Source: Armatimonadota bacterium
GTDB taxonomy: Bacteria; Sysuimicrobiota; Sysuimicrobiia; Sysuimicrobiales; Sysuimicrobiaceae
Direction of reading: 5' to 3'
DNA: 48,482 nt
Assembly: GCA_031460175.1 (NCBI GenBank)
Contig: JAVKGW010000011.1
Span: forward strand, 1 to 48,482
The notes beneath the pieces were generated by a model. That model was not told where the DNA came from and ran no database searches. It worked only from the letters and a program-made list of their open reading frames with translations. Each line of letters starts with the position of its first letter. Within the stretch, counting starts at the first letter, position 1. A program made the position numbers and the translations under genes. This document shows, piece after piece, positions 1-14,035 of this stretch.

Positions 1-124
1 GATATCCCGCCTGGGCGAGCAGCTCCTTCGCCCGCGCAGGGTTATACGAGGGTCCTGGGTAGTCCTGAAGGGCTGCAGGACTGAACGGGTGCGCAATCTG
101 ATTCCACGGGCGCCAGTTCCCGCG
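1..124. repeat. Exact 124-bp repeat (first copy, at the window edge)
   Basis: Bases 1-124 are identical to 7137-7260; the first mismatch is at 125 against 7261. Both copies lie inside the paralogous binding-protein genes. Identity falls sharply after about position 168, so this looks like a recent gene-conversion or recombination tract, or a repeat at which the assembly broke. The repeat may continue to the left of the window. Confidence 0.95.
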
Positions 125-1054
125 GCCGAGCGCCCGGGCGATGGCATCCCGATCCACCGCGTACGCGAGTGCCTCCCGAACCCGGCGATCGGCAAACGGC
201 GAATCCGAGTTCACACTGTCCGGGATGATCATGAGGATCCCCGCACCCGGAGGCCCCGTGATGAGCCGGAACCTCCCGGTATCCCGGAGCTCCGCGATGA
301 TGGCGGGATCCCCGAAGCCCGCGATGTCCAGCTGATGGGCCAACAGGGCCGCCTTCCGGGTTTGCTCATCCTGGATGAACCGCATCTCCAGGCGATCCAA
401 ATAGGGCTTTCCGCGATCCCAGTACTGGGCAAACCGCACGTAGTCCGCGTACGAGCTCGGATCGTACCGCACGATCCGGAAGGGCCCCGTGCCCACCGGC
501 TGCCACTGGGCCCGCTCCTGTCCCAGCCGCTGGATGGTGGCAGGAGAAGCGATGAGGGCCGCGGATCCTCCCAGAGCAAGGAACACCCCGTTGTCCCACT
601 TCTCCAGGTTCACCCGCACCGTGTACCGGTCCAGCACGTCCACGGACTTGATGTAGGCCGGCAGCCGCCGGACCTTGATGCTCTCCTCCAGGCTGAACTT
701 CACCGCCTCCCCGGTCAGCTCCGTGCCGTCGTGGAACTTGACCCCCCGGCGAAGCCGCAGGACGATGGCCTTCCGGTCCGGGGCCACCTCCCACCGCTCC
801 GCGAGTCTGGGGGAGACCCGCCCGTACGCATCGACCCACACCAGGGTCTCGTACACGGGCATGGCGGCGATGATGCCGAACACGGGCATGATCCACGGGA
901 CCCCGAAGGGGCCTCCGGGAGGTTCGTCCGCCACCCGCAGGACCCCTCCCCGTTGGGGCTGCTCCGCAGGACCCGCCAGGCCTACCCCGATCCCTCGGGC
1001 GGCCAAGACAACCGCCAGGATCACGCCCAAAGCCAGTCCTCCCATCCTCCGCAT
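1..1054 (-). CDS. Peptide/solute ABC transporter substrate-binding protein, copy A (partial, C-terminus off the left edge)
   Basis: This is the N-terminal 351 residues of a family 5 (DppA/OppA-like) extracellular solute-binding protein. It starts at ATG 1052-1054 behind a GGGAGGTGA ribosome-binding site. The product begins with a hydrophobic signal-like stretch (MRRMGGLALGVILAVVLAA) followed by the GGVLRVADEPPGGPFGVPW region. It is a close paralogue of the complete protein at 6655-8181, which predicts about 508 residues, so roughly 155 residues are missing beyond the window. Its reading frame was followed by hand because it has no stop inside the window. It lies 36 bases downstream of the UGSC partner gene, in the same orientation, and is probably the last visible gene of the operon that starts at 10850. 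It would bind a substrate outside the membrane, but no matching dipeptide permease genes are present nearby. Confidence 0.88.
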   Translation of the reverse strand, partial: MRRMGGLALGVILAVVLAARGIGVGLAGPAEQPQRGGVLRVADEPPGGPFGVPWIMPVFGIIAAMPVYETLVWVDAYGRVSPRLAERWEVAPDRKAIVLRLRRGVKFHDGTELTGEAVKFSLEESIKVRRLPAYIKSVDVLDRYTVRVNLEKWDNGVFLALGGSAALIASPATIQRLGQERAQWQPVGTGPFRIVRYDPSSYADYVRFAQYWDRGKPYLDRLEMRFIQDEQTRKAALLAHQLDIAGFGDPAIIAELRDTGRFRLITGPPGAGILMIIPDSVNSDSPFADRRVREALAYAVDRDAIARALGRGNWRPWNQIAHPFSPAALQDYPGPSYNPARAKELLAQAGY

Positions 1055-1090
1055 CCTAGCTCACCTCCCGTTTCATAACGTTACACCCGA

Positions 1091-2137
1091 TCACATGCGC
1101 CTCGCGGGGATTCGGCGGGTAACGGTCTGCCAGACGAAGGTGGGACAGACGGTGGATACTCCCGCGTTCCGCGCTCCCGCCACGATCAACGTAATCGCCT
1201 CCGGGGCATGCGCGAACCGCACGAACGCCTCGTCCGGAAGGTCTGGATCCAGCCCCCCTGCCTTCGCAAGGCGCCGCAACTCCCCCGCCCGACGCCCGAA
1301 GTGCTCCCACAGGAACGCCCGCACTCGATGCTTGCTCCACCCCGCCTCCGCGATGAGCTGCGCGTGCTCCGGCCCCATCACCACGATGGACCCGTGGCCT
1401 CGGGGGGAGGGGAAATATCCTCCTCCGTATGACATGGAGTCCGCGATGTTGAGGAGGATGTGTTCCGGCTGCTTGGAGTCCCGCTGTTCCACGGGCATGG
1501 TCCCCCTCGCCCAGGCCACGGTCACCGTGCTCTCGTCCTCCCGAAATCCCCGCTCCACGTGCAACGGTTCCCAGGGGCTCTCCTCCTCGTTCTCCGCGAT
1601 GCAGAAGCTGTACTTGGCCGGGGTCCCCTGGGTGCTCTGATCGAAGGTGTGGGGCCGGATCCCGAAGGCGTTCATGACCACCAGCCGCAGGGCCCGGCCC
1701 ACGGTGGCGTTCGCCCGGTCTCCGGGACTGAACACGTTGTCCGTGCCGTTAAAGCCCAGCTCCTGGCGCACGGGACCGTTGATCACCACCAGCACCGCCT
1801 GGCCGGTGGTGCTCTGGAACAACCCGCGGCTCACCGGCAGGTCCCGAACAGCCTCCAGCATGGCCAGGACCACGGGGAAGTGCTCCGGCCGACACCCCGC
1901 CATGACCGCGTTCGCGGCCGCAAGGCGCACGGTGCACTTCCGCCCCAGGTGCTCCTGCGCGAAGATCACCTCCTCTGGGTCCCGGTCCACCTGCGCGAGG
2001 AACTCCTCCACGAACTCCTCCGCGGGAGGCACCACCGGCAACCCGTCCGTCCACCCCTGCTCGTAACAGTACTCGATGGCCGCCCGGGCCTCCCGCACCG
2101 CCTCCCGGGTCGGTTCCGTCCGCACTCCTTGACTCAT
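1091..2137 (-). CDS. UGSC-associated partner protein (stand-alone form), function unknown
   Basis: A 348-residue soluble protein of unknown function. It is homologous from about residue 20 to its end to the C-terminal domain of the fused selenoprotein at 8201-9808. Conserved blocks shared by the two copies include EQGWTDGLPVVPP, VRLAAANAVMAGCRPEHFPV, GDRANATVGRA, STQGTPAKYSFCIAENEEES and GWSKHRVR. Five cysteines are conserved (C24, C68, C82, the Cys of SFCIAENEE and the Cys near STVCPTF), which would fit redox or metal chemistry but proves nothing. The start ATG overlaps the stop of the selenoprotein gene as ATGA, so the two are translationally coupled. Fusion of the same two parts in the second copy strongly suggests a physical complex. 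No signal peptide or membrane segment is visible. It was probably annotated elsewhere only as hypothetical or UGSC-linked. Confidence 0.85.
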   Translation of the reverse strand: MSQGVRTEPTREAVREARAAIEYCYEQGWTDGLPVVPPAEEFVEEFLAQVDRDPEEVIFAQEHLGRKCTVRLAAANAVMAGCRPEHFPVVLAMLEAVRDLPVSRGLFQSTTGQAVLVVINGPVRQELGFNGTDNVFSPGDRANATVGRALRLVVMNAFGIRPHTFDQSTQGTPAKYSFCIAENEEESPWEPLHVERGFREDESTVTVAWARGTMPVEQRDSKQPEHILLNIADSMSYGGGYFPSPRGHGSIVVMGPEHAQLIAEAGWSKHRVRAFLWEHFGRRAGELRRLAKAGGLDPDLPDEAFVRFAHAPEAITLIVAGARNAGVSTVCPTFVWQTVTRRIPARRM

Positions 2138-2670
2138 CCTGCCACCTCCTCCTGCAGCAGCCGCACCACTTCCGGAAGGGCCTGCTCCGCCCGGACTCTC
2201 AACTCCTCCGGGGAGAGACTGCTGATGGGGTGCGGAATGGCCACATACGGATACCCTTCCAATCCCTGGGTCCGAGCCATGGCGTCCGCGGTGCGGCGGA
2301 AGGCATCCGTGATCACCGCGGCAGCCGGAATCCCCCGTTCCTCGAACAGGATGCCGTCGGCCACACTGGCCGCGCTGCAGGACCCTCAGTCCCCGACCCC
2401 GGGGATCACGAAATCACACTGCGTCCCGAGCTCCTCCACCAGTTCCGGAGGAACGGGGACCGCGAAGTGCGGCTTGCGCCGCAGCACCACCTCCCGCACC
2501 CCGTACCTCTCCCGGAGGAGATCCCCCAGGGCCCTGAGGAAGACATCCGCGTTCCGCTTGCCGTTGTCCACGAGCCCCACCCGGGCCCCCCGCAGGGACC
2601 GACCGCCCCTTGGGGCCATGCGCCGCCTGATCTCCTGCACCCCTCCTGTGGGATCCACCAGCACCGCCAT
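2134..2670 (-). CDS. UGSC family selenoprotein (in-frame TGA decoded as selenocysteine)
   Basis: A 178-residue protein read through an in-frame TGA at 2386-2388 (codon 95). The start ATG is at 2668-2670 behind GGAGGTGAGGGG. Before the TGA comes a conserved N-terminal half (RGARVGLVDNGKRNAD, then GVGD); after it the frame continues GSCSAASVADGILFEERGIP and AIPHPISSL to the stop. The motif is therefore U95-G-S-C98, the hallmark of the family listed in databases as UGSC family (seleno)protein. The paralogue at 8201-9808 has the TGA at the same codon, with homologous protein on both sides, so a nonsense mutation is unlikely. A SECIS-like hairpin follows directly. A U-x-x-C pair suggests thiol/selenol redox chemistry; the reaction is unknown. 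It starts 5 bases after the ABC ATPase gene and overlaps the partner gene by 4. SelA/B/C/D must be encoded elsewhere. Confidence 0.9.
2349..2388 (-). promoter_or_regulatory. Predicted bacterial SECIS element of UGSC selenoprotein A
   Basis: The mRNA from the UGA (2388-2386) folds by eye into an outer GGGU/AUCC stem and an apical stem CGCGGCC/GGCCG(A)CG with one bulged A, closing the five-base loop AGUGU (2367-2363). A G lies at loop position 2, 20 nt after the UGA, which fits the usual spacing for SelB-dependent bacterial SECIS elements. The apical hairpin is the same in the second selenoprotein gene. No folding program was run. Confidence 0.72.
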
Positions 2671-2675
2671 TCCCC

Positions 2676-3809
2676 TCACCTCCCTCCGTTGGAATGATGT
2701 GCGATGGCCTCCGAGGGAGACTGCCGGAGAAGGAGGATCCGCCGCGGGTCCAGCCGGAGGTAGACCGCCTCCCCGATCCGCCAAACCGGCGGACCGTAGG
2801 CCATCAGGGTCCCCCTTCCCTCGGCCAGGGCGATCCGGTACCGCATCACCGTCCCCTCGAACAGGGCGGAGAGGACCCTCCCTCCCACCACGTTCACGTC
2901 CCCCGTGGGTTCCGGCTCCATCACCACGTGCTCGGGCCGGATTCCCACCCACACCCGCTCGCCCCGCGGCACATCGCCTTCCTCCAACCGCACCTGCAGC
3001 CGCCCCCAGTCCGTCTCCACCACGGCCACTTGCCCGTTCATCGCCACCAGGCGCCCGGTGAACAGGTTCGTGGTCCCCACGAACTCCGCCACGAACCGGG
3101 TCCGGGGCCGCTCGTACAGTTGCTGGGGGGTCCCGACTTCCTCCACCCGTCCCTCCCGCATTACCGCCACCACGTCTGACAGGGACAGCGCCTCCACCTG
3201 GTCGTGCGTCACGTAGACCGTGGTAATGCCCAGCTTCCGCTGCAATCCCCGCAGTTCCTCCCGAACCTGCTCCCGCACCTTCGCATCCAGGTTGCTGAGG
3301 GGCTCATCCAGGAGCAGAACCTGAGGCTCGTACACCAGGGCCCGGGCCAGGGCCACCCGCTGCTGTTGGCCTCCGCTCAGCAACGGCGCGGGCCGGTCCC
3401 CCAACCCTCCCAGTCCCACCAGCTCCAGCGCCGCCTCCACCCGCCTCCGGATCTCCCCGGGGGGCAGGCGCCGCACCCTCAAGGGATACGCCACGTTCTC
3501 GAACACCGTCAGGTGCGGCCAGATGGCATAGGACTGGAAGACCATCCCGATGTTCCGGCGCTCCGGAGGGAGATAGATCCCCTGCGCCCGGCTGAAAACC
3601 ACCTGCTCCCCGAACCGGATCTCCCCGTCATCGGGCCGCTCCAACCCGGCGATGCACCGCAGCACCGTGGTCTTCCCGCACCCGCTGGGGCCCAGCAGGG
3701 TCAGGATCTTCCCCTCCGGGGCCTCCAGGGTCACCCCGTCCACGGCCCGGACCCGCTGGCCCTGGAAGGTGAACACCTTCCGGAGGGAGATCAACCGGAT
3801 GGAGGCCAC
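2676..3809 (-). CDS. ABC transporter ATP-binding protein (iron(III)/spermidine type, FbpC/PotA-like)
   Basis: A 377-residue ATPase that would power the permease encoded immediately upstream. Visible motifs are Walker A GPSGCGKT (40-47), Q-loop Q92, signature LSGGQ (144-148), Walker B LLLDEP (165-170) and H-loop H202, followed by a C-terminal TOBE-type regulatory domain (about 235-365, including VGIRPEHV). The start is GTG at 3807-3809 with AGGTGAT upstream. Length and C-terminal domain match the FbpC/PotA class rather than peptide transporters. It is the third gene of the binding protein-permease-ATPase set and lies 5 bases before the UGSC selenoprotein gene. The 42-base gap to the permease gene contains a weak TATGCT-like -10 sequence, not convincing as a separate promoter. 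Confidence 0.93.
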   Translation of the reverse strand: MASIRLISLRKVFTFQGQRVRAVDGVTLEAPEGKILTLLGPSGCGKTTVLRCIAGLERPDDGEIRFGEQVVFSRAQGIYLPPERRNIGMVFQSYAIWPHLTVFENVAYPLRVRRLPPGEIRRRVEAALELVGLGGLGDRPAPLLSGGQQQRVALARALVYEPQVLLLDEPLSNLDAKVREQVREELRGLQRKLGITTVYVTHDQVEALSLSDVVAVMREGRVEEVGTPQQLYERPRTRFVAEFVGTTNLFTGRLVAMNGQVAVVETDWGRLQVRLEEGDVPRGERVWVGIRPEHVVMEPEPTGDVNVVGGRVLSALFEGTVMRYRIALAEGRGTLMAYGPPVWRIGEAVYLRLDPRRILLLRQSPSEAIAHHSNGGR

Positions 3810-3851
3810 GACCGATCACCTAAATCTAGCATACCTTGTGCTCTCACGGAT

Positions 3852-5570
3852 CTAGAGCGCGGCGGCCGGCCCGCGCATCCACCGGCGTGCCGCGGCGACC
3901 ACGACCACACACAGGGCGCTCACGAGCACGCCCAGGGCCGCCATGTCCCCGACCTGCCCGTCCTCCCACAGGTGGAACAGCAGGGGACCCACGGGCTCCG
4001 AGCGGGGAGTATACAGGAGGACGGAGGTGCTGAACTCCTGGATGTAGATGGTAAAGAGGATGGCCCAACCCGCGAGGAACCCGGGCCGAACGAGCGGCAG
4101 GAGGACCTTCCGGAACGTGCTCCCAAACCCCGCCCCGCAAACCCTCGAGGATTCCTCCAGCTCCCGGTGCACCTGCACCATGGTGGAGGTCATGGCCCTC
4201 AGGCCGTAGGGCAGAAACCGCGTGACGTAGCTGATGAGGAGGATCCATAGGGTCCCGTAGATGGGCAGGGGGAGCTGCGCGTAGGCCCAAAGCAGCCCCA
4301 CCGCGAGGGCCGTCCCGGGAAAGGCCCAGGGCACGAAGGATAGCCCCTCCAGGATCCCGCTGAACCGAGTCCTCCGATGAACGGTGAAGTACGCCACCAG
4401 GGAGGCGAGGAGCATGGCCACGGTGGCCCCGCCCAGTGCCAGGGTGAGGCTCACCTGGAGGGCCCGCCCCACCCGACCACTCTGGAGAAGGAACTCGTAG
4501 TGCCGGAGCGTGAGCTGGCTCAGCATCTCCCGGCTCGGCACCTGGTAGTAGGGCGTCAAGGAGACGTACACGAGCACCGCCAGGGGGACGATCACGAGCA
4601 GCCCGAGGATCCCCAGCGCCACCCCGGAGGCCAGATACCGCCACCGACCCAGGTTGATCACCCGGGGTCGGTATCCCCGTCCCGTGATGGTGGCGTAGCG
4701 CTCCGAAAGTGCGGTCAGCCTCCGGTAGATCCCCACCAGGGTGAGGGTGATGGCCAGCTGGCCCACCGCATACGTGGCCGCGAGGTTGTGGTTGGGAGGG
4801 AGGGTCGCCAGGGCCTCCCGGAAGATCCTCGTGCTCAGGACCTCGATCCCCACGGGCATCCCCAGGACCACGGGGATATCGAGGCTCTCGATGGCCCGGG
4901 CGAAGTTCAGGGTGGCCGTGCCGATGACCGCGGGCGCCATGACGGGGATGGTCACCCGCCGGGTCACATCCAGCACGCCGGACCCCGCCATCCGTCCGGC
5001 CTCCTCCAGGGCCGGGTCCATGGCCCGCAGGGCCGCGGAGAGGATGAGGAAGGCGAGGGGCGTGAGCACCAACCCCTCCACGAACATCATCCCGCCCAGG
5101 GAGTACCCGTTCAGGACGGGAAGTCCGAGAGGCTGCAACACCCCTCGATTGAGCAGCCCGATGCGGGGGCTCAGCACCAGGCTCCACGAGGTGGCCACGA
5201 GGAACCGGGGGATCACGTTGGGCGCCAGACCGATGAGCTCAAACAGGCCCCTGCCCGGTGCATCGGTGCGTACCGTAATCCACGCGAGGACCGTCGCCAG
5301 AAGCATGGAAAATGCGGTGGCCCCCGCGGCGAAGAGCAGGGAGTTCACCAGGATCCGGTAGGTCCTCGGATCCGTGTAGGCCTCCCGATAGTGCGCGGTG
5401 GTCCAGCGCCCGGGGAGTCCCAGGGGCGCATCGCTGACGCTCCCGTAAAAGAGCATCACCGTGGGGTACAGGGCGAGGAAGCCCACGAGAAGGCCTGTGG
5501 CCACCGCCACCCACGTGCCCGTCTCCACCGAGAGCCAGGGGCGCGGGCCTGCCAGTACCCGCCCGTTCAT
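3852..5570 (-). CDS. ABC transporter permease, two fused permease domains (FbpB-like)
   Basis: A 572-residue integral membrane protein made of two binding-protein-dependent permease domains in tandem, as in ferric iron FbpB/SfuB-type transporters. Each half carries an EAA-like cytoplasmic loop: LEEAGRMAGSG with the following IPVMAP in the first half, and LEESSRVCGAGFGS with VLLPLVRP in the second. About twelve hydrophobic segments alternate with short loops. The start ATG is at 5568-5570 with only a weak ribosome-binding site. It sits between the binding-protein gene (36-base gap) and the ATPase gene (42-base gap). The substrate cannot be read from sequence: proteins of this class carry iron(III), but related ones carry phosphonates, thiamine or organic anions. 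The neighbours make a catabolic substrate a fair alternative to iron. Confidence 0.92.
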   Translation of the reverse strand: MNGRVLAGPRPWLSVETGTWVAVATGLLVGFLALYPTVMLFYGSVSDAPLGLPGRWTTAHYREAYTDPRTYRILVNSLLFAAGATAFSMLLATVLAWITVRTDAPGRGLFELIGLAPNVIPRFLVATSWSLVLSPRIGLLNRGVLQPLGLPVLNGYSLGGMMFVEGLVLTPLAFLILSAALRAMDPALEEAGRMAGSGVLDVTRRVTIPVMAPAVIGTATLNFARAIESLDIPVVLGMPVGIEVLSTRIFREALATLPPNHNLAATYAVGQLAITLTLVGIYRRLTALSERYATITGRGYRPRVINLGRWRYLASGVALGILGLLVIVPLAVLVYVSLTPYYQVPSREMLSQLTLRHYEFLLQSGRVGRALQVSLTLALGGATVAMLLASLVAYFTVHRRTRFSGILEGLSFVPWAFPGTALAVGLLWAYAQLPLPIYGTLWILLISYVTRFLPYGLRAMTSTMVQVHRELEESSRVCGAGFGSTFRKVLLPLVRPGFLAGWAILFTIYIQEFSTSVLLYTPRSEPVGPLLFHLWEDGQVGDMAALGVLVSALCVVVVAAARRWMRGPAAAL

Positions 5571-5606
5571 GCCGGTGCCTTGTACCGCGAGGCCACCGTC
5601 GCTCGA

Positions 5607-6617
5607 CTATCGCCGCGCAAACACCCTCTCCAGCTCGCGCCGCCACTCCTGCAGCCTTTCGGCTCCCAGGGGCTGCGCCACCTGGAATCGGATCTGCTCC
5701 AAGCCTGGGATGGGCGACTTCACCCCCCGCACCAGGACCACCTCCCCTTCCTGCGCGAGGGCCAAAAGGGTGGCCCGGGAGTGGAGGGTCTCCATGAGGA
5801 GCCGCGCCGCGTTGGGGTGCGGAGGCCGAGCGCTCACCGCGAAGTGGGCACCCACGGCCATCATGGGATTGATCCGCGCGTAATCGATGGGGGCTCCCTG
5901 CGCCCGGAAGAGGGGAACGTAGTGCAGGAGCGTGATCCCGATGGGGTATTCCCCGCTGATCACCTTTGGGGGGACCAGGGGATCCTGCCCCACGAAGGCC
6001 GGGTTCTGTTCCGCGAAGCCCCGGAGGAACCGGTCATAATCCCTTCCCAACACGTTGCGGAGCCAGTGCAACCAGAGGGCGATGGTTACGTTCCGCTGGG
6101 GATCCGCCATCACGATCTTCCCCCGCCACTTCGGGTCGATGAGATCCAGGTACGACCGGGGGACCTCCGCCGCGGGGACCAGCCGCGGGTTGTAGATCAC
6201 CGCGTCCGCGATCACCCGGTAGGGGGGAGGGAGGGTGGGATCCCGCCACGTTACCGTGAGTCCCTCGATGGGAGGCCACGGACCCCGACCGATGGCTCCC
6301 GCGTCCCGGAGCACCTGCATGGTCTCCGTGGTGCCCTCCGCCACGTCAAAGAGCCACCGGCCCACCCGGGTCTCCGTGAGTGCCCGGTCCAGGATCCCGC
6401 TCGCGGAGCTCCTCCACTCCTCCACCGGCACCCCGTATCGTCCCTCATAGATCTTCTTCACCACGTTGAAGATGGGCTCCCGCATGGCCACGTACACGAC
6501 CACCTTTCCCTCCCGCCGGGCCGCCTGCACCACATCCGGCTGCGCCATCAGCACAGGCGCCCCTGCCAGGCCGAGGAGGGTCAGGACCATCCCCGCCACA
6601 TGCCATCGGTACCTCAT
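5607..6617 (-). CDS. ABC transporter substrate-binding protein, iron(III)/spermidine type (FbpA-like)
   Basis: A secreted periplasmic-type binding protein of family 1/FbpA class, 336 residues. A signal sequence is visible (RYRWHVAGMVLTLLGLAGA with an A-x-A-like site near PVLMAQ). The body starts ARREGKVVVYVAM, typical of the family. ATG 6615-6617 is preferred because GGAGGAGACC lies directly upstream; an ATG at 6641 would add eight residues without a ribosome-binding site. The paired tyrosines that bind Fe(III) in FbpA are not obvious, so the ligand may not be iron. It stands between the family 5 binding protein (37-base gap) and its permease, within a single-direction gene string. Confidence 0.85.
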   Translation of the reverse strand: MRYRWHVAGMVLTLLGLAGAPVLMAQPDVVQAARREGKVVVYVAMREPIFNVVKKIYEGRYGVPVEEWRSSASGILDRALTETRVGRWLFDVAEGTTETMQVLRDAGAIGRGPWPPIEGLTVTWRDPTLPPPYRVIADAVIYNPRLVPAAEVPRSYLDLIDPKWRGKIVMADPQRNVTIALWLHWLRNVLGRDYDRFLRGFAEQNPAFVGQDPLVPPKVISGEYPIGITLLHYVPLFRAQGAPIDYARINPMMAVGAHFAVSARPPHPNAARLLMETLHSRATLLALAQEGEVVLVRGVKSPIPGLEQIRFQVAQPLGAERLQEWRRELERVFARR

Positions 6618-6654
6618 GGTCTCCTCCTGCGTGTTCTGCAAACCTTACTTATGC

Positions 6655-8181
6655 TTATGGCCGTGCTTTCCATGCGTTCGCGGGCTCCCACCAAGGCCAG
6701 GTAGATTTGGTGAGGTGGGCCGTTCCCCGCACCTCGGGCCATGCCACGTAGGTCCGCATGGCCATGAACACCGGAATGACCGTGTAATCCTGCATCAGCA
6801 GCCGATGAACTTGTTGGAGCTTGTGCCGCTGGGGCGTAAGGGTCGCCGCAGACTCCTCCACCAGCCGTTCCAGCCCCTCCGGACGCTTCAGGCTGACAAA
6901 CCCTTCCGGGGAGTTCGTGAAGTAGAACCGGATGTAGTTGTTGAAGTTCGGGAAGTAGCCGTAGAAGTGAAGGAGGACGCCCCGCCATCCGTTCCGCTGG
7001 TACTCCACGTACCGCCCGATCTCCGGCGTCTCCAGCTCCGCCCGGATCCCGACTTCCTGGAGATACCGCTGGACCGCCAGGGCAATGTCCCGCTCCAGGT
7101 AGAAGGCCTTGATGACCCGGGTGCTGAACCCATTGGGATATCCCGCCTGGGCGAGCAGCTCCTTCGCCCGCGCAGGGTTATACGAGGGTCCTGGGTAGTC
7201 CTGAAGGGCTGCAGGACTGAACGGGTGCGCAATCTGATTCCACGGGCGCCAGTTCCCGCGACCGAGCGCCCGGGCGATGGCATCCCGGTCCACCGCGTAC
7301 GCGACCGCTTCCCGAACCCTCCGGTCCGCGAAGGGAGAATCGGAATTCGCACTGTCCGGAATGATCATCAGGATCCCTGCTCCCGGAGGCCCGGTGATGA
7401 GCTGGAACCTCCCTGTATCCCGAAGCTCTGCGATGATGGCAGGGTCTCCGAACCCGGCGATGTCCAGTTGGCGCGCCAGGAGAGCAGCTTTGCGCGTCTG
7501 CTCGTCCCGGATGAACCGCAGCTCGAGGCGGTCCAGGTAGGGCTTCCCGCGATCCCAGTATTGATTAAACCGGACATAATCCGCGTACGCGTTCGGGTCA
7601 TATCGCACGATCCGGAACGGCCCCGTGCCCACCGGCTGCCACTGGGCCCGCTCCTGCCCCAATCGCTGGACGGTGGCAGGGGAAGTAATGAGAACCGCGC
7701 TCAGCGAGATGTAGATCCCGTTGTCCCACTTCTCCAGGTTCACCCGCACCGTGTACCGGTCCAGCACGTCCGCGGACTTGATGTAGGCAGGCACCCGCCG
7801 GGCCTGGATGTACCCTTCCAAGCTGAACTTCACCGCCTCCGCCGTCATCTCCGTGCCGTCGTGGAAGAGGACTCCCCGCCGCAGCCGGAGGATGAGGGCT
7901 TTCCTGTCCGGAGCCACCTCCCATCGCTCCGCGAGCCTCGGCAGGACCCGGTTATACGCGTCCACCCACACCGGGGCCTCGTAGACGGGCATGGCGGCGA
8001 TGATGCCGAACACGGGCATGATCCACGGCACCCCGAAGGGGCCTCCCGCGGGTTCGTCCGCCACCCGAAGCACCCCTCCCCGCTGGGGCCGCTCCGCAGG
8101 ACCCGCCAGACCCACCACTCCCTGGATGGACAGGACCACCGCCAGGGCCACGCCAACGGCCAACGCGACCATCTTCCGCAT
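6655..8181 (-). CDS. Peptide/solute ABC transporter substrate-binding protein, copy B
   Basis: A complete 508-residue family 5 (DppA/OppA-like) extracellular binding protein. The start ATG at 8179-8181 follows GGGGTGAG. A signal peptide is visible (KMVALAVGVALAVVLSIQG), then GGVLRVADEP, FHDGTEMTAEAVKFSLE (a family hallmark), QYWDRGKPYLDRLELRFI and the YNPARAKELLAQAGYPNG region. It is a close paralogue of the partial gene at 1-1054 and a more distant one of the gene at 44988-46505. The three share the unusual VADEP/VVDEP...PFGVPW N-terminal block, so they form a local subfamily. It begins 19 bases after the stop of the fused selenoprotein gene. No dedicated family 5 permeases are near, so it may act with a remote permease, or act as a stand-alone solute scavenger. 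Confidence 0.93.
   Translation of the reverse strand: MRKMVALAVGVALAVVLSIQGVVGLAGPAERPQRGGVLRVADEPAGGPFGVPWIMPVFGIIAAMPVYEAPVWVDAYNRVLPRLAERWEVAPDRKALILRLRRGVLFHDGTEMTAEAVKFSLEGYIQARRVPAYIKSADVLDRYTVRVNLEKWDNGIYISLSAVLITSPATVQRLGQERAQWQPVGTGPFRIVRYDPNAYADYVRFNQYWDRGKPYLDRLELRFIRDEQTRKAALLARQLDIAGFGDPAIIAELRDTGRFQLITGPPGAGILMIIPDSANSDSPFADRRVREAVAYAVDRDAIARALGRGNWRPWNQIAHPFSPAALQDYPGPSYNPARAKELLAQAGYPNGFSTRVIKAFYLERDIALAVQRYLQEVGIRAELETPEIGRYVEYQRNGWRGVLLHFYGYFPNFNNYIRFYFTNSPEGFVSLKRPEGLERLVEESAATLTPQRHKLQQVHRLLMQDYTVIPVFMAMRTYVAWPEVRGTAHLTKSTWPWWEPANAWKARP
7137..7260. repeat. Exact 124-bp repeat (second copy)
   Basis: Identical to window bases 1-124, and located at the equivalent place in the paralogous binding-protein gene. 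Adjacent stretches of the two genes are clearly more diverged, so the identity is local rather than the general level of the duplication. Confidence 0.95.
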
Positions 8182-8200
8182 GGCTCTCACCCCCTGCGGG

Positions 8201-9808
8201 TTATTCGTGCACCCTTGCCTCCGGAACGCCCCGCGTCGCCGTCTGCCAGGCGAAGGTGGGACACACGGTAGACACTCCCGCGTTCCTCGCCCCCGCGATG
8301 ACCAAGGTAATGGCTTCCGGGCCCGGCGCGAACCGCACGAACGCCTCGTCCGGAAGGTCCGGATCCAGCCCCCCTGCCTTCGCAAGGCGCCGCAACTCCC
8401 CCGCCCGACGCCCGAAGTGCTCCCACAGAAACTCCCGCACCCGATGCTTGCTCCACCCCGCCTCCGCGATGAGCTGCGCGTGCTCCGGCCCCATCACCAC
8501 GATGGACCCGTGCCCGAACCGCCAGGGGAAGTAGGCACCTGCGTAGGACATGGAGTCCGCAATGCTGAGGAGGATGTGCTCCGGCCGCTTGGAGTCCCGC
8601 TGCTCCACGTGTAGGGTGCTCTGGGCCAGGGCCACGGTCACTGTGCTTTCCTCCCGGGCAAATCCTCGCTCCACGTGCAACGGCTCCCAGGGGCTCTCCT
8701 CCTCGTTCTCCGCGATGCAGAAGCTGTACTTGGCCGGGGTCCCCTGGGTGCTCAGGTCGTACACGTGCGGCCGGATCCCCAAGGCGTTTTGGATCACCAG
8801 CCGGATCGCCCGGCCCACGGTGGCGTTCGCCCGGTCCCCGGGGCCCAGGACGTTGTCCTTGCAGTTGAACGCCAGCCGGTTCCGGATCGGGCCGTTCACG
8901 ATCAGCAAGACCGCCTGGCCATGCTGGGGCATGAGCACCGCTCGGTTTTCGACAAGGGCCTGCAGGGCTTCCAAGGCCGCCAGGACCACGGGGAAGTGCT
9001 CCGGCCGACACCCCGCCATGACCGCGTTCGCGGCCGCAAGGCGCACGGTGCAGCTCCTGCCTAAGTGCTCCTGGCTCAGGACCACCTCATCTGGATCCCG
9101 TTGTACCTGGGCCAGGAACCTTTGGACGAGCTCCTCCGTGGGAGGTACCACGGGCAATCCGTCCGTCCACCCCTGCTCGTAGCAGAACTCGATCAGGGAA
9201 GGAACCGCATCGCCCCTCGGGAGGAACGCTTCCTCCTCCGGGCGCGCAGGACGCTCCCACCCTCTCCCCACGTCCCGGGCTTCTCCCACGCCCAACACAC
9301 GCAGTACCTCGGGAAGCACCTGTTCTGCCCGGGCCCGAAGCTCCGCGGAGGTGAGGCTACTGAGGGGGTGCGGGATCGCCACATAGGGGTATCCTGGTAC
9401 TCCCAGGTCCCGGGCTCGGGTATCTGCCATCCCGCGGAAGGCCTCCGTGACCACCACCGCGGTCGGGATCCCTTGCTCCTCCAACGCGATCCCGTCGGCC
9501 ACACTGGCCGCGGCACAGGCCCCTCAATCTCCCACGGCATGTACCACGAACGTACACGCCTCGGAGAGCTCCCGGAGCATCTCCCGGGGGGCCGGGAGGG
9601 TGGGGTTGGGTTTCCGGCGGATGAGGACCTCTCCGACTCCGAAGCGCTCCCGGAGCAGCTCCCCCAACGCCTGTACGAACCGATCCGCATTGCGCTTCCC
9701 GCTGTCCACGAGCCCCACCCGGGCTCCCCGGAGCTCGGCCTGACCTCTGGGCGCCAGGGTGCGCGAAATCCGCTCTACCCGCCCGATGGGGGCCACGAGT
9801 CCCGGCAT
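8201..9808 (-). CDS. Fused UGSC selenoprotein plus partner domain (in-frame TGA decoded as selenocysteine)
   Basis: A predicted 535-residue fusion. Start ATG 9806-9808 follows GGGGGAGGG. Residues 1 to about 175 match the small UGSC selenoprotein of 2134-2670: RGARVGLVDSGKRNAD, AVGD, then TGA at 9524-9526 (codon 95), then GACAAASVADGIALEEQGIP and AIPHPLSSL. The motif is U95-G-A-C98, Ser replaced by Ala. After a linker of some 35 residues (about 175-210) comes the partner domain (EQGWTDGLPVVPP through STVCPTF) matching the separate gene at 1091-2137. There is no stop codon or frameshift between the two domains. The identical TGA position and shared SECIS hairpin support selenocysteine. It lies 49 bases after the dioxygenase gene and 19 before binding protein B. 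The reaction is not known; the fusion argues that both domains act in one enzyme. Confidence 0.9.
9492..9526 (-). promoter_or_regulatory. Predicted bacterial SECIS element of the fused UGSC selenoprotein
   Basis: Downstream of UGA 9526-9524 the mRNA has the apical stem CCGCGGCC/GGCCG(A)CGG closing loop AGUGU (9505-9501). The second loop base is G and lies 20 nt after the UGA, exactly as in the first gene. The 20-base core GCGGCCAGUGUGGCCGACGG is identical in both genes although other nearby codons differ. Confidence 0.72.
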
Positions 9809-9857
9809 GCCGATCCCTCCCCCTGGGACTTCCCGCAGATCCGCGATCCACGCTCCA

Positions 9858-10850
9858 TCAGCGCACCGCCACCTCCACGGGAGGCGTCCCGTAGGTGTGG
9901 AAGGTGGCCACGGTGGGCATCCCCCAAGCCTGTCCTCTCTTGCGCTCCGCCTCGCTCCACACGATGGGCCTCCAGTCCGGAGCCAGGATCAGGCGGGCAC
10001 CCGGACACCCGATCTCCACCCGGTTGCCGCCGGGCTCGTACACGTAGAGGAAGAACGTCTGCTGGACCGCGTGCTTGTAGGGCCCGTACTCGATGAAGAT
10101 CCCGTGCTCCAGGCAGATGTCCGCGGCCCGCAGGACCTCCTCCCGACTGTCCACCGCATAGCACACGTGGTGGAACCGCCCGCGCGCTCCCGTCTGGTCC
10201 TCCGTGATGGCCACCTCATAGCCCTTGTTGTTCGTGGTCACCCACGCGCCCTTCTCCGAGCCGTCGTCGAAGATGATGATCTCCGTGAGCCGGCAGCCCA
10301 GGGCCTCCTGCATCAAGATCCGGGTGGCACGCACGTCCGCGGCGAACAGGTTGATGTGATCCAGCCGTCGGAGATTGGCACCTCGCGCGGGAAATCGGGA
10401 GGCCTGGTTCTTCAACGCGGGCCTCGTCTCCTCCGTGGGCCGGTACCACTCCACCTCGTAGAAGATCTCCCCCAGGTGGCCGTCCGGGGTCCGGAACTGA
10501 TAGGCGGGGCCGTGCCCCCGATCCCCCTCGATCCACCCCACGCCGTAGCCCGACCGCTCCAGAGCCTGGACCCGACGGTTGAGGGCCTCCGGGCTTGCGG
10601 CGCGGAAGGCGAAGTGGCCCATCCCAGGCAGCCTCGCGGCCGTGAGCTTCAGGGTGTGATGGGCATAGTCGTCCCACCCGCGCAGGTACACGGAGTCCCC
10701 GGACTGTTCGGTGATGGTCATCCCCATGACGTCCACGAAGAACCGGAGACTTTCCTCCAGCTTGGGGGTGAGGAGCTCCAGGTGGGCGAGGTGGGCGAGA
10801 TCACAACTCGGGGGGCTCGGGGGAATCGTCGGGCCCATGAGCTCACTCAT
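9858..10850 (-). CDS. VOC-family extradiol ring-cleavage dioxygenase (type I, catechol 2,3-dioxygenase-like)
   Basis: A 330-residue two-domain vicinal-oxygen-chelate protein. The N-terminal domain starts near LAHLELLTPKLEESLRFF and the catalytic C-terminal domain near LDHINLFAADV. The Fe(II) ligands expected for type I extradiol dioxygenases are present: H165 (DHIN), H227/H228 (RFHHVCYAV) and E279 (NRVEIG). The length is typical of catechol or 2,3-dihydroxybiphenyl dioxygenases, so cleavage of a catechol-like ring with O2 is the best guess, though the natural substrate is open. ATG 10848-10850 is chosen over the upstream in-frame start because AAGGAGGTAGCC precedes it. It is the first gene of the minus-strand operon, behind the promoter at 10906-10935, and divergent from the hydrolase/FCD operon. 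Confidence 0.88.
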   Translation of the reverse strand: MSELMGPTIPPSPPSCDLAHLAHLELLTPKLEESLRFFVDVMGMTITEQSGDSVYLRGWDDYAHHTLKLTAARLPGMGHFAFRAASPEALNRRVQALERSGYGVGWIEGDRGHGPAYQFRTPDGHLGEIFYEVEWYRPTEETRPALKNQASRFPARGANLRRLDHINLFAADVRATRILMQEALGCRLTEIIIFDDGSEKGAWVTTNNKGYEVAITEDQTGARGRFHHVCYAVDSREEVLRAADICLEHGIFIEYGPYKHAVQQTFFLYVYEPGGNRVEIGCPGARLILAPDWRPIVWSEAERKRGQAWGMPTVATFHTYGTPPVEVAVR

Positions 10851-10905
10851 GGCTACCTCCTTCGCCACAGGATGCGGAAATCCTCGGCGTGCCTTACGCA
10901 GTTTC

Positions 10906-10935
10906 ACTCTAGGAGGATGCCTACGAATCTGTCAA
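10906..10935 (-). promoter_or_regulatory. Predicted sigma-70 promoter of the dioxygenase/selenoprotein operon
   Basis: Read on the minus strand: -35 TTGACA (10935-10930), 18-base spacer, -10 TAGAGT (10911-10906). The -35 box is a perfect match and overlaps the palindrome at 10931-10948, an arrangement typical of repression. Confidence 0.6.
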
Positions 10936-10948
10936 CACGCCTGTTGAC
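10931..10948. promoter_or_regulatory. Palindromic operator candidate for the FCD/GntR regulator
   Basis: GTCAACA-CGCC-TGTTGAC: perfect 7-base arms around a 4-base spacer, in the 169-base region between the divergent dioxygenase and hydrolase genes. It covers the minus-strand -35 box, and its right arm also supplies a TTGACC (10944-10949) that could be a plus-strand -35 (weak -10 TACCTT at 10968-10973). FCD-type GntR regulators bind short palindromes of this kind, and one is encoded 1 kb away at 11949. Confidence 0.62.
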
Positions 10949-11019
10949 CGGGTCCATCCGTGTCGTGTACCTTTAGTCAAAGAACGCTCCTGCGGTGTGG
11001 GAGCAGAAAAGGGGGACCC

Positions 11020-11946
11020 ATGGGCGAGGAGATCCGGGCGCCCTCGGAGCGGGCGCAGGCGGTGGTTCGCGGCGCGTACGACCTTCACGTGCATACCGGC
11101 CCGGACGCCCTCCCCCGCCGTTGTCACGATATCGAGGCGGCGCGGGGATTTCTCCATCGCGGGCTGGCGGGATTTGCCATCAAGTCCCACTACACCTCCA
11201 CCGCGGCCCGGGCGCGCCTGGTGAACCTCCTGGTGCCCGGCATTCGGGCATTCGGTGCCCTCTGCCTGAACGCCGCCGTGGGCGGCATGAACCCCGTGGC
11301 GGTGGAGATCGCGGCGCGGGAGGGCGCCCGGATCATCTGGATGCCCACGGTGGACGCGGAGAACGAGGCCCGGGCCCTCCGGGAGGGGCGCACATCTGAA
11401 AAGGCTCCCTACTGGGCCCGCCTCCAGGAGGAGCTGCGTCAGAAGGGGGTCTCCTATGATCCCGTGCGGGTGGTGGACGGATCCGGGAGGGTGCGGCCCG
11501 AAACCCGCGAGGTCCTGCGGGCCATCGCGCGGCACGACCTCGTCCTCGCCACGGGACACCTGAGCCGCGACGAGATCTTCGCGGTGGTGGAAGCCGCCAA
11601 GCAGGAGGGCATCCGTCGCTTGGTCATCACCCACCCGGACTTTCCCACGCAGGACCTCCCCATGGAGGACCAGCGCCTCCTGGCCCGGGAAGGAGCCCTG
11701 CTGGAACGGTGCTTTGCGACCGCGCATACAGGGAAAATATCGTGGGCGGAGCTGTGCACCAGGATCCGGGAGGTGGGGGTGGAGCACTCCCTCCTCAGCA
11801 GCGACCTCGGACAACCCACCGCTCCCCCGCCCGAGGACGGCCTCGCCTTGATGGCAGACCGGCTCCTGGAAGCCGGATTTTCTGAGGAAGAGATCCGCAT
11901 CATGGCGGTGCGCAATCCACAGCGGCTCGTGGACGGTGAGTCCTAA
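11020..11946 (+). CDS. DUF6282-like metal-dependent hydrolase (amidohydrolase/PHP-like)
   Basis: A 308-residue cytosolic protein with an N-terminal DLHVHTGPD metal-binding motif and later metal-ligand-type histidines (KSHYTS, ATGHLS, THPDFP), typical of TIM-barrel metal hydrolases. The overall pattern resembles proteins grouped as DUF6282. The start ATG 11020-11022 follows GGGGG; a GTG at 10960 would add 20 residues but would lie over the promoter region. It heads the plus-strand operon and ends two bases before the regulator gene. Such enzymes often hydrolyse a C-N, C-O or C-C bond of a pathway intermediate; here a lactone or ring-cleavage product is possible but not shown. It is not recognisably LigI (pyrone dicarboxylate lactonase). 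Confidence 0.78.
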   Translation: MGEEIRAPSERAQAVVRGAYDLHVHTGPDALPRRCHDIEAARGFLHRGLAGFAIKSHYTSTAARARLVNLLVPGIRAFGALCLNAAVGGMNPVAVEIAAREGARIIWMPTVDAENEARALREGRTSEKAPYWARLQEELRQKGVSYDPVRVVDGSGRVRPETREVLRAIARHDLVLATGHLSRDEIFAVVEAAKQEGIRRLVITHPDFPTQDLPMEDQRLLAREGALLERCFATAHTGKISWAELCTRIREVGVEHSLLSSDLGQPTAPPPEDGLALMADRLLEAGFSEEEIRIMAVRNPQRLVDGES

Positions 11947-11948
11947 CC

Positions 11949-12641
11949 ATGGAAGAGGGAAAGGTCTCCGTCCGACCGCAACGGACAGAGGACTACTGCT
12001 ACGAGGCCCTACGCCGCGCCATCCTAGAGGGACGGCTGCTCCCCAACCAGCGGCTCGTGGAGGTGGAGCTGGCCCGGACGTTCGGCGTCGGCCGCGCGGC
12101 GGTGCGCACCGCGCTGGTACGGCTGGAGCAGGAAGGGATCGTCCAACGGGAGCCCAACCGGGGAGCACGGGTGCGGTTGGTGACCGAGTCGGAGGCCGTG
12201 GAGATCCTAGAAGCCCGGGCGGCGCTGGAGTGCCTGACCGTACGATACGCGGCCCGTCGGGCGACCCCCGAGGACATCGGAGAGCTCCAGAAGGTCCTGC
12301 GCCGTATGGAGGTTTGCCGGGAGCGGGGCGACCCGCTGGGCTACTCGGAGATGAACCACGAACTTCACCGGATCCTTCTCCGCATCGCCGGGCACGCGAC
12401 CGCGGCCCGGCTGATCGATGTCCTGCAGGTCCAGAACGTGCGGTATCGCTACCGGACCGTGTTGATCCCCGGCCGGCTCGCCCGATCCCTGGAGGAACAC
12501 CGGGCCATCGTGGAAGCGGTGGCAAGGGGCGATCCGGACGGTGCGGAAGCCGCCATGCGCCATCACCTCCAGCAGGTGATCGAGGCCATGCGTCAGGCGG
12601 CCCAGATGGATCACCTTCGGCGGGTTTGGAATCTGGACTGA
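11949..12641 (+). CDS. GntR-family transcriptional regulator with FCD ligand-binding domain
   Basis: A 230-residue regulator. The N-terminal winged helix (about 14-75: YEALRRAILEGRLLPNQRLVE, then RTALVRLEQEGIV) is typical GntR. The C-terminal all-helical FCD domain (about 88-220) keeps the usual histidine positions (NHELHR, EEHRAIV, AMRHHL) that hold a metal and help bind small organic acids. It is the second gene of the plus-strand operon, two bases after the hydrolase gene. FCD regulators commonly repress neighbouring catabolic genes until a carboxylate intermediate binds. The palindrome at 10931-10948 in the divergent promoter is the likely target, so it would control both arms of the island. 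Confidence 0.93.
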   Translation: MEEGKVSVRPQRTEDYCYEALRRAILEGRLLPNQRLVEVELARTFGVGRAAVRTALVRLEQEGIVQREPNRGARVRLVTESEAVEILEARAALECLTVRYAARRATPEDIGELQKVLRRMEVCRERGDPLGYSEMNHELHRILLRIAGHATAARLIDVLQVQNVRYRYRTVLIPGRLARSLEEHRAIVEAVARGDPDGAEAAMRHHLQQVIEAMRQAAQMDHLRRVWNLD

Positions 12642-12659
12642 AGTTAAGGAGGGAACGCC

Positions 12660-13379
12660 GTGGAACCCAGCCGCAGGCTTCTTGTGGTCAGTGCCCACGC
12701 CGCGGATTTTGTGTGGCGCGCAGGCGGGGCCATCGCCACCGTGACCACCCGAGGCGGAAGCGCCCTGGTGGTGGCCCTCTCCTACGGCGAACGCGGGGAA
12801 TCCGGGGAGCTTTGGCGGGAACCGGGGCAGACCATCGAGCGGGTGAAGGCCATCCGGCACGAGGAGGCGAGCCGGGCCGCGGAGATCCTGGGGGCCCGGT
12901 TCCAGAGCCTCGACCTGGGCGATTACCCCCTCGAGGTGGACCGGAACGCCCTGGAGAAGCTTGCAGAGATCTTCCGGGAGTTCGAGCCGGACTGTGTCCT
13001 CACCCACGCGGAACGGGATCCCCTGAACCCAGACCACGCGGTGGCCTTCCAGGCCACGGAACGCGCCCGGCAGCTCGCGGCGGGCGCGGGGGTGGCCAGC
13101 GCCTTCCGCACCGTTCTGCCTCCCCGGGTGTTCGCCTTCGAACCGCACCAGCCGGAGCTCTGCGGGTTCGTCCCGGACACCTTCCTGGACATCACGCCCG
13201 TGTACGAGCTCAAACAAAAGGCCATGGAGGCCATGGCCTCCCAGAAGTACCTGCAGGAGTACTATGGAGCCATGGCGATCCGCCGGGCCAACCACGCGCG
13301 GCGACTCTCAGGCAATTCCCGCATCCGGTACGCGGAAGCCTTCCAGCGCATCCTGCCCATCGTGGTGGAGGCCCTATGA
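12660..13379 (+). CDS. PIG-L fold protein, 4-oxalomesaconate hydratase (GalB)-like
   Basis: A 239-residue PIG-L/LmbE-fold protein starting at GTG 12660 behind AAGGAGGGAAC. The usual zinc motif AHPDD is changed to SAHAADFVWRAGG (H13, D16), followed by LSYGERGESGELW and a late His region (HAERDPLNPDHAVAF). To my knowledge this variant block is characteristic of GalB, the 4-oxalomesaconate hydratase of gallate and protocatechuate 4,5-cleavage pathways, rather than of N-acetylglucosamine deacetylases. GalB turns 4-oxalomesaconate into 4-carboxy-4-hydroxy-2-oxoadipate. The next gene, overlapping by ATGA, is a GalC-like aldolase for exactly that product, which supports the call. A plain deacetylase remains possible. 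Confidence 0.78.
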   Translation: MEPSRRLLVVSAHAADFVWRAGGAIATVTTRGGSALVVALSYGERGESGELWREPGQTIERVKAIRHEEASRAAEILGARFQSLDLGDYPLEVDRNALEKLAEIFREFEPDCVLTHAERDPLNPDHAVAFQATERARQLAAGAGVASAFRTVLPPRVFAFEPHQPELCGFVPDTFLDITPVYELKQKAMEAMASQKYLQEYYGAMAIRRANHARRLSGNSRIRYAEAFQRILPIVVEAL

Positions 13380-14035
13380 GCTCCCTCTCTCCGGTGGACC
13401 CGAAGGAACTGGCAGCGCTCGGCGTGGCCACGCTCTACGAGGCGAGCGGCCGGGCGGGTCTCGTGGAGGGTCCTCTGATCCAGGTGGTTCCTGGGAGTCG
13501 GGCCGCGGGGCCGGCCCGCACGGTCCTGTGCGGCCAGGACGACAACCTCATGGTCCACGCGGTCATGGATCAGGTGCGGCCGCAGGAGGTCCTCGTGCTC
13601 ACCATGCCCAGGCCCGCACCGGTTGCCCTCGTGGGGGAGCTGCTGGCCATCCAGGCCAAGAGGCGGGGGGCTGCGGCACTCCTGGTGGACGCCGCGGTCC
13701 GGGACGTGGAAGCCCTCCGCGACCTGGGCCTCCCCATCTGGACACGGTACGTGAGCGTCCGGGGCGCCACGAAGGATGTGGTGGGGGCCATCAACGTGCC
13801 GGTGACCGTGGGGGGTGCGGAGATCCGCCCCGGAGACTGGGTGGTCCTGGACGCGGACGGGGCGGTGGTCATCGCCGCGGAGCGCCTCCCGGAGGTCGTG
13901 CAGGCCGCCCGGGCCCGTGCGGTGCGCGAACAGGATCTGCGGCGAAAGCTCGAGGCGGGACAGCTCACCTACGACCTCCACGGCCTGCGCGCCAAGGTGG
14001 AAGGGACCGCGGCCCCCCGATCCCCGAGGCCGTAA
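13376..14035 (+). CDS. RraA-fold aldolase, 4-carboxy-4-hydroxy-2-oxoadipate aldolase (GalC/LigK)-like
   Basis: A 219-residue RraA-like protein. Family features are GVATLYEASGRAG (16-28), DNLMVHA (56-62), VGELLAIQAKRRG (86-98), the DAAVRD block with R109 and D110, and the C-terminal TYDLHGLR. This matches class II pyruvate aldolases that split 4-carboxy-4-hydroxy-2-oxoadipate to pyruvate and oxaloacetate, and 4-hydroxy-4-methyl-2-oxoglutarate. True RraA RNase E inhibitors are shorter and lack this tail. The gene overlaps the GalB-like gene and closes the plus-strand operon. A weak AACCC/GGGTT hairpin (14035-14050) follows. Together with the dioxygenase it suggests breakdown of an aromatic acid to central metabolites. 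Confidence 0.85.
   Translation: MSSLSPVDPKELAALGVATLYEASGRAGLVEGPLIQVVPGSRAAGPARTVLCGQDDNLMVHAVMDQVRPQEVLVLTMPRPAPVALVGELLAIQAKRRGAAALLVDAAVRDVEALRDLGLPIWTRYVSVRGATKDVVGAINVPVTVGGAEIRPGDWVVLDADGAVVIAAERLPEVVQAARARAVREQDLRRKLEAGQLTYDLHGLRAKVEGTAAPRSPRP

Follow-up and report, generated by a model that had tools for sequence, protein, structure and literature searches.

A covarying hairpin downstream of the in-frame UGA of UGSC-family genes as a predicted selenocysteine-insertion signal

Bacterial SECIS (bSECIS) elements, signals for the insertion of selenocysteine (Sec), are textbook biology. Here, we report on a hairpin that follows the in-frame UGA in the mRNAs of two UGSC-family selenoprotein genes, both found in one 48,482-nt stretch of an Armatimonadota genome (hereafter, the window). 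The hairpin exists and is under functional constraint, and it is almost certainly a bacterial SECIS element, through which, we infer, SelB binds and the UGA is read through. Because 144 relatives keep the hairpin by paired mutations and Cys-using relatives are without it, the comparison of sequences indicates a genuine but ordinary bacterial Sec-insertion signal, a canonical bSECIS in a known selenoprotein family. The evidence first offered for it, the identity of two copies and the fit to a loose model, is weak, whereas the comparative evidence is strong. The UGSC family itself was published, as a family of selenoproteins, in 2008 (PMC2398784).

Two UGSC genes and the hairpins in their mRNAs

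Both genes lie on the minus strand. Copy 1 (2134–2670) encodes 178 amino acids with its single in-frame TGA read as Sec, and scores 206.8 bits against PF24696 (cut-off 25) and 167.5 bits against NF041046 (cut-off 125). This TGA (2386–2388) lies in the motif GDUGSC and is aligned with Cys in 82 homologues. Copy 2 (8201–9808) is one continuous frame of 535 amino acids, scoring 175.7 bits against PF24696 over residues 4–173 and 145.4 bits against NF041046 (cut-offs 25 and 125); its TGA (9524–9526) lies in the motif GDUGAC, the active-site motif being UGAC here and UGSC in copy 1. The two copies share 66.7% of their nucleotides overall. The stop TGA of copy 1 (2136–2134) overlaps, as ATGA, the start codon of a partner gene of 348 amino acids (1091–2137, minus strand), which has no Pfam or NCBIfam match in the family scans and to which the second domain of copy 2, fused in frame, is clearly similar. 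This is probably the ‘Unknown_1’ fusion of the 2008 paper, in which Zhang and Gladyshev described the UGSC-containing selenoprotein family, including its fusion to a second domain (PMC2398784). By the curated cut-offs of PF24696 and NF041046, the window genes are direct members of that family, with which they share the Sec motif UGSC/UGAC and the second-domain fusion and from which they show no difference in kind. The source genome (2.49 Mb in 18 contigs, 98.9% complete) holds five UGSC genes, all five with TGA at the site, as have all six of a congeneric genome.

Judged by eye, the neighbours of both UGSC genes (window 1–14000) include an ABC ATPase, a permease and solute-binding proteins, as well as glyoxalase/dioxygenase-like and amidohydrolase-like proteins, a GntR-type regulator and a PIG-L-like deacetylase, an assortment that suggests a catabolic cluster. 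Two solute-binding-protein genes on the minus strand (roughly 1–1050 and 6700–8200), each downstream of one UGSC gene and its partner, appear by eye to be paralogues, which suggests a possible duplication of the UGSC cluster inside the window. A plasmid search found no plasmid with a similar gene, and none of the five stretches returned by a DNA pattern search of viral contigs matches the UGSC profile. Rfam at gathering thresholds returned, for the whole window, four tRNAs only and no SECIS family.

The original prediction described a GC-rich stem with a bulged A and the loop AGUGU in both mRNAs, and sequence and folding agree with it. Numbering from the T of each TGA (k = 0; window coordinate 2388 − k in copy 1 and 9526 − k in copy 2), the inner stem of both copies joins k 16–20 to 26–30 (CGGCC/GGCCG) around the loop at 21–25; A31 is bulged, and the pairs 15–32 and 14–33 follow, with 13–34 in addition in copy 2. 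The hairpin of copy 1 thus occupies 2355–2374 on the minus strand, with the stem at 2372–2368/2362–2358, the loop at 2367–2363, the bulged A at 2357 and outer pairs, placed by folding, at 2373–2356 and 2374–2355; covariation and a synonymous null, described below, support it. That of copy 2 occupies 9492–9513 on the same strand (stem 9510–9506/9500–9496, loop 9505–9501, bulged A 9495), with outer pairs, again from the fold, at 9511–9494, 9512–9493 and 9513–9492. Copy 2 had been said to pair differently outside the core, as CCGCGGCC/GGCCG(A)CGG, and this pairing is exact. In both genes, the hairpin starts 13 nt past the UGA and its loop lies 18 nt from the UGA, and the G at loop position 2 is the 20th nucleotide past the UGA, as had been claimed. 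Free folding recovers the stem in both copies, but with A21–U25 closed to leave a GUG loop.

The hairpin does follow both TGA codons, and it is found in more than these two genes: four of the five UGSC genes of the genome carry an AGUGU hairpin, and the fifth has a hairpin in a different register, CACCAAGUACUUGGUG. The bulged A holds for the window copies as a local variant, since in most family members this A pairs with a U; codon 5 is UCG in those members and offers that U, and the GCG of the window cannot pair in this way.

The identical core of the two copies measures 21 nt, one more than first counted. This identity proves nothing alone because the copies share another identical run, of 22 nt, for which no RNA role is proposed and which is upstream of the UGA by 198 nt, and the fold z-scores (+0.33 to −0.48 against dinucleotide shuffles; 44–54-nt segments, two copies) describe a stability that is not unusual for the base composition. 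The caution, voiced from the start, that sequence identity is not proof was well placed. Both observations are also what one would see if the identity merely reflected the shared coding of SVADG in recent GC-rich paralogues, with no RNA element at all, and in some Cys genes the same GGCC/GGCC stem does arise by chance from the coding sequence. The homologues decide between this account and a SECIS element.

Paired mutations and codon choice among homologues

After profile extraction and duplicate removal, the comparison set comprised 144 Sec-type (TGA) and 82 Cys-type UGSC genes, with homologues taken as single loci. Family searches turned up UGSC genes that carry a single TGA at the site in the source genome, the congeneric genome and many other phyla; across the domain (386 genomes), exactly one TGA is present in 55 of the 57 matches listed, the two exceptions being a weak match and a contig-end fragment. 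Dense homologue sets were drawn from three further phyla. The family is greatly expanded in one of these phyla (genomes G405–G497, the phylum of G126; G461, G488), where the gene occurs in 72 of 95 genomes, a single genome holds as many as 12 matches, and every match listed has TGA at the site. The scan for Cys homologues used a pattern containing a Cys codon and returned 80 loci, nearly all from Actinomycetota; because the pattern required that codon, the relative numbers of Sec and Cys genes in the set carry no meaning.

A covariance check across UGSC homologues, proposed along with the original prediction, revealed abundant compensatory change among the Sec genes. The six-pair helix, examined in 43 dereplicated in-register Sec sequences, has 93.8% of its pairs formed, compared with 75.7% after shuffling. 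Double-change cells number 33, compared with 8.5 in shuffled alignments, and the covariation score is 0.435, compared with 0.130; none of the 500 shuffles was as high on either measure, and the best slid register scores 0.138. Double changes are present in four of the six stem pairs, and RNAalifold finds the same 5-bp stem in the Sec genes. In 23 Cys sequences, by contrast, the same helix is 57.2% paired against 57.0% when shuffled, with no excess of covariation, and RNAalifold returns a different, three-pair structure. When the changes are mapped on a tree of the Sec genes made from the alignment minus the motif columns, the pair that closes the loop switches between C–G and G–C six times, its left and right letters each changing six times, and the third stem pair changes state eight times. 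These flips are separate compensatory changes and not one inherited change.

Part of the hairpin also encodes protein, and the original prediction had pointed to the conserved SVADG as a confounder. We redrew codons 0–14 among synonyms, using the gene’s own and the group’s codon usage, in 500 trials. All five inner pairs are present in 93.1% of the Sec genes (n = 144), compared with 15.6% under this null (s.d. 3.0, maximum 26.4%), and in 9.8% of the Cys genes (n = 82), compared with 9.5%. The concern over coding is answered because codon choice in the Sec genes is far from synonymous-random exactly where coding and hairpin overlap. Of 119 Sec genes with Ser at the loop codon, 117 spell it AGU, whereas AGU accounts for 73 of the 1,021 Ser codons at other positions of these genes. 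Cys homologues have Ala or Thr at the loop codon, their two Ser codons there being AGC and UCG, and none has an AGU loop. Cys-containing homologues had been expected to lose the hairpin, and across the 82 genes pairing is indeed at the level of the synonymous null and the AGU loop is gone. Neither of the outcomes named in advance as refuting the prediction, Sec stems devoid of compensatory change or a hairpin retained in Cys genes, was observed.

Shared coding in recent paralogues is therefore a very improbable account of the hairpin: the null that it implies is rejected in the Sec genes and holds in the Cys genes, the choice of AGU is near-absolute, and double-sided changes run across the family through stretches with different amino acids (AASVAD, SCSVHD, SWSVHD and SGSVLD).

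Fit to the bSECIS model and the Sec machinery of the genome

The bSECIS model describes a loop of 3–9 nt, a stem of 4–16 bp, a G in the first two loop positions and a distance of 16–37 nt from the UGA (PMC13188914). The UGSC hairpin has the loop AGUGU (or GUG), a stem of 5–6 bp plus the outer pairs and a distance of 18 nt, and it lies in the coding region right after the in-frame UGA, where the frame continues with family homology. It resembles the elements of the Escherichia coli formate dehydrogenase genes and the bSECISearch model in its position in the coding region after the UGA, its upper stem of 5–6 bp and its distance of 18 nt (PMC13188914). It differs from them in a loop that is mostly AGUNU, with AGU coding Ser or an equivalent, and in the use of another loop or register by some subfamilies. 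These Sec subfamilies are few (for example, L005, L250 and L124); their loops include UGUAU, CUUGU and GGUCU, and their shifted stems include CACCAAGUACUUGGUG in the fifth gene of the genome, CGUGGUU..AACCACG and GCCCGC..GCGGGC. In all of them, a hairpin still stands at about the usual spacing after the UGA. Agreement with the model is nevertheless weak evidence when taken alone because, under a loose rule (at least 5 bp, a G at loop position 1 or 2, register free), 67 of the 82 Cys genes pass along with all the Sec genes. The original claim that stem, loop and spacing suit a SelB-dependent element draws its support from the covariation, the synonymous null and the contrast between Sec and Cys genes, and binding by SelB would be the expected consequence.

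The host has all the parts for Sec decoding, since SelA, SelB, tRNA-Sec and SelD are all encoded in the same genome. SelA (570 bits) and SelB (353 bits) are adjacent and clustered with tRNA-Sec (82.1 bits; called SeC by ARAGORN, anticodon tca) on contig 3. SelD (373 bits; contig 1, 341633–342556, L264) has an in-frame TGA in the motif GUAS, followed, by reading of the sequence, by the hairpin GGUCC-GGA-GGACC, whose loop stands 17 nt away from the UGA. SelD is itself a predicted selenoprotein, unrelated to UGSC, and the spacing of its hairpin is nearly that of the UGSC hairpins. A 607-amino-acid protein near selA with weak similarity to SelD is not SelD; the true SelD is the one on contig 1.

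With the hairpin as a SECIS element, decoding would proceed as follows. The hairpin of each UGSC mRNA stands 18 nt (UGA to loop) downstream of the in-frame UGA; the C-terminal domain of the genome’s SelB would bind the AGU(G)U loop and the upper stem, SelB would carry Sec-tRNA-Sec, with its UCA anticodon, to the ribosome, and selenocysteine would be inserted at the UGA, within the active-site motif U-G-S/A-C, giving a protein with a presumed redox role. We give hardly any credence to the UGA being a real stop, or Trp or Cys by a changed code, with the hairpin doing another job such as that of a pause or an attenuator. We found no point in support of this, and against it stand the UGSC frame, which runs about 84 amino acids past the UGA with family homology, the alignment of the UGA with Cys in homologues, the complete Sec machinery including the TGA-containing SelD, and the use of TGA as the stop codon of copy 1 itself.

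Fold, kinship and the history of the UGA

A Trx-like fold has been suggested for UGSC (PMC2398784), whereas our AlphaFold2 model (pLDDT 93.4) has a (βα)5 Rossmann/flavodoxin-like order, an α/β/α arrangement in which the Sec residue, 95, lies just before the start of a helix. The best matches among PDB structures are generic (CheY-like, Rossmann and lumazine synthase chains, Z 8–10); the structure matches listed include no Trx-fold chain, though UGSC may still have that fold. A sequence search of solved structures gave no credible relative.

Profile–profile comparison matched UGSC to proteins of the GrdB/PrdB type, components of glycine, sarcosine, betaine and D-proline reductases (PF07355), read through their TGA (L269–L280). 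The match has a probability of 92.7% (E = 4e-7); the Sec sites fall opposite each other and the UGSC motif is set against UGTC-like motifs. A narrower, Actinomycetota-heavy profile reached 42% only. Comparison with the GRDB domain within its Pfam bounds gave nothing because the model ends just before the Sec codon: in nine of nine genes (L269–L280), full-length PF07355 matches break off immediately ahead of the in-frame TGA, and the model appears to be without the Sec active-site part of the protein. UGSC proteins have no PF07355 (GRDB) match in the Pfam scan. UGSC and GrdB/PrdB share the profile match over the Sec region, and GrdB-like genes have TGA-GGN-ACN with, by eye, a hairpin loop at the same distance. 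They differ in that UGSC proteins, at about 175 amino acids, are without the long N-terminal part, and in that GrdB-like loops look GGN-like and not AGU. The comparison suggests that UGSC is distantly akin to the Sec domain of the glycine and proline reductases, which we regard as a lead and not as a finding.

Two readings, a double origin of Cys and a regain of Sec by the window clade, were put to the tree. There, the five-gene Sec clade of the window lies between two actinobacterial Cys clades, an arrangement that needs two changes, but the AU test did not reject a single clade of all Cys sequences (P = 0.43). The Cys set is almost all from Actinomycetota, and the Sec/Cys contrast counts as one or two switches, not 82. 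It is conceivable, if unlikely, that the window clade descends from a Cys ancestor, regained its UGA and evolved a new AGU hairpin; were this true, a SECIS would have arisen in GC-rich coding sequence where the stem was already half formed. For other families, a 2006 study reported Cys homologues that retain remnants of SECIS structures (PMC1794560); the 82 Cys UGSC genes show no remnant above chance under the synonymous null.

In the searched papers that name UGSC, with most subscription papers outside the scope of the search, we found no covariation analysis of the UGSC element. The comparative evidence for a real SECIS in UGSC genes supports annotating them through the UGA. In genes as rich in GC as these, generic stability and fits to the bSECIS rule discriminate poorly, and a test for a positioned AGU loop works. 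The likely kinship with GrdB/PrdB would offer a testable lead on the role of UGSC, a widespread and uncharacterised selenoprotein.
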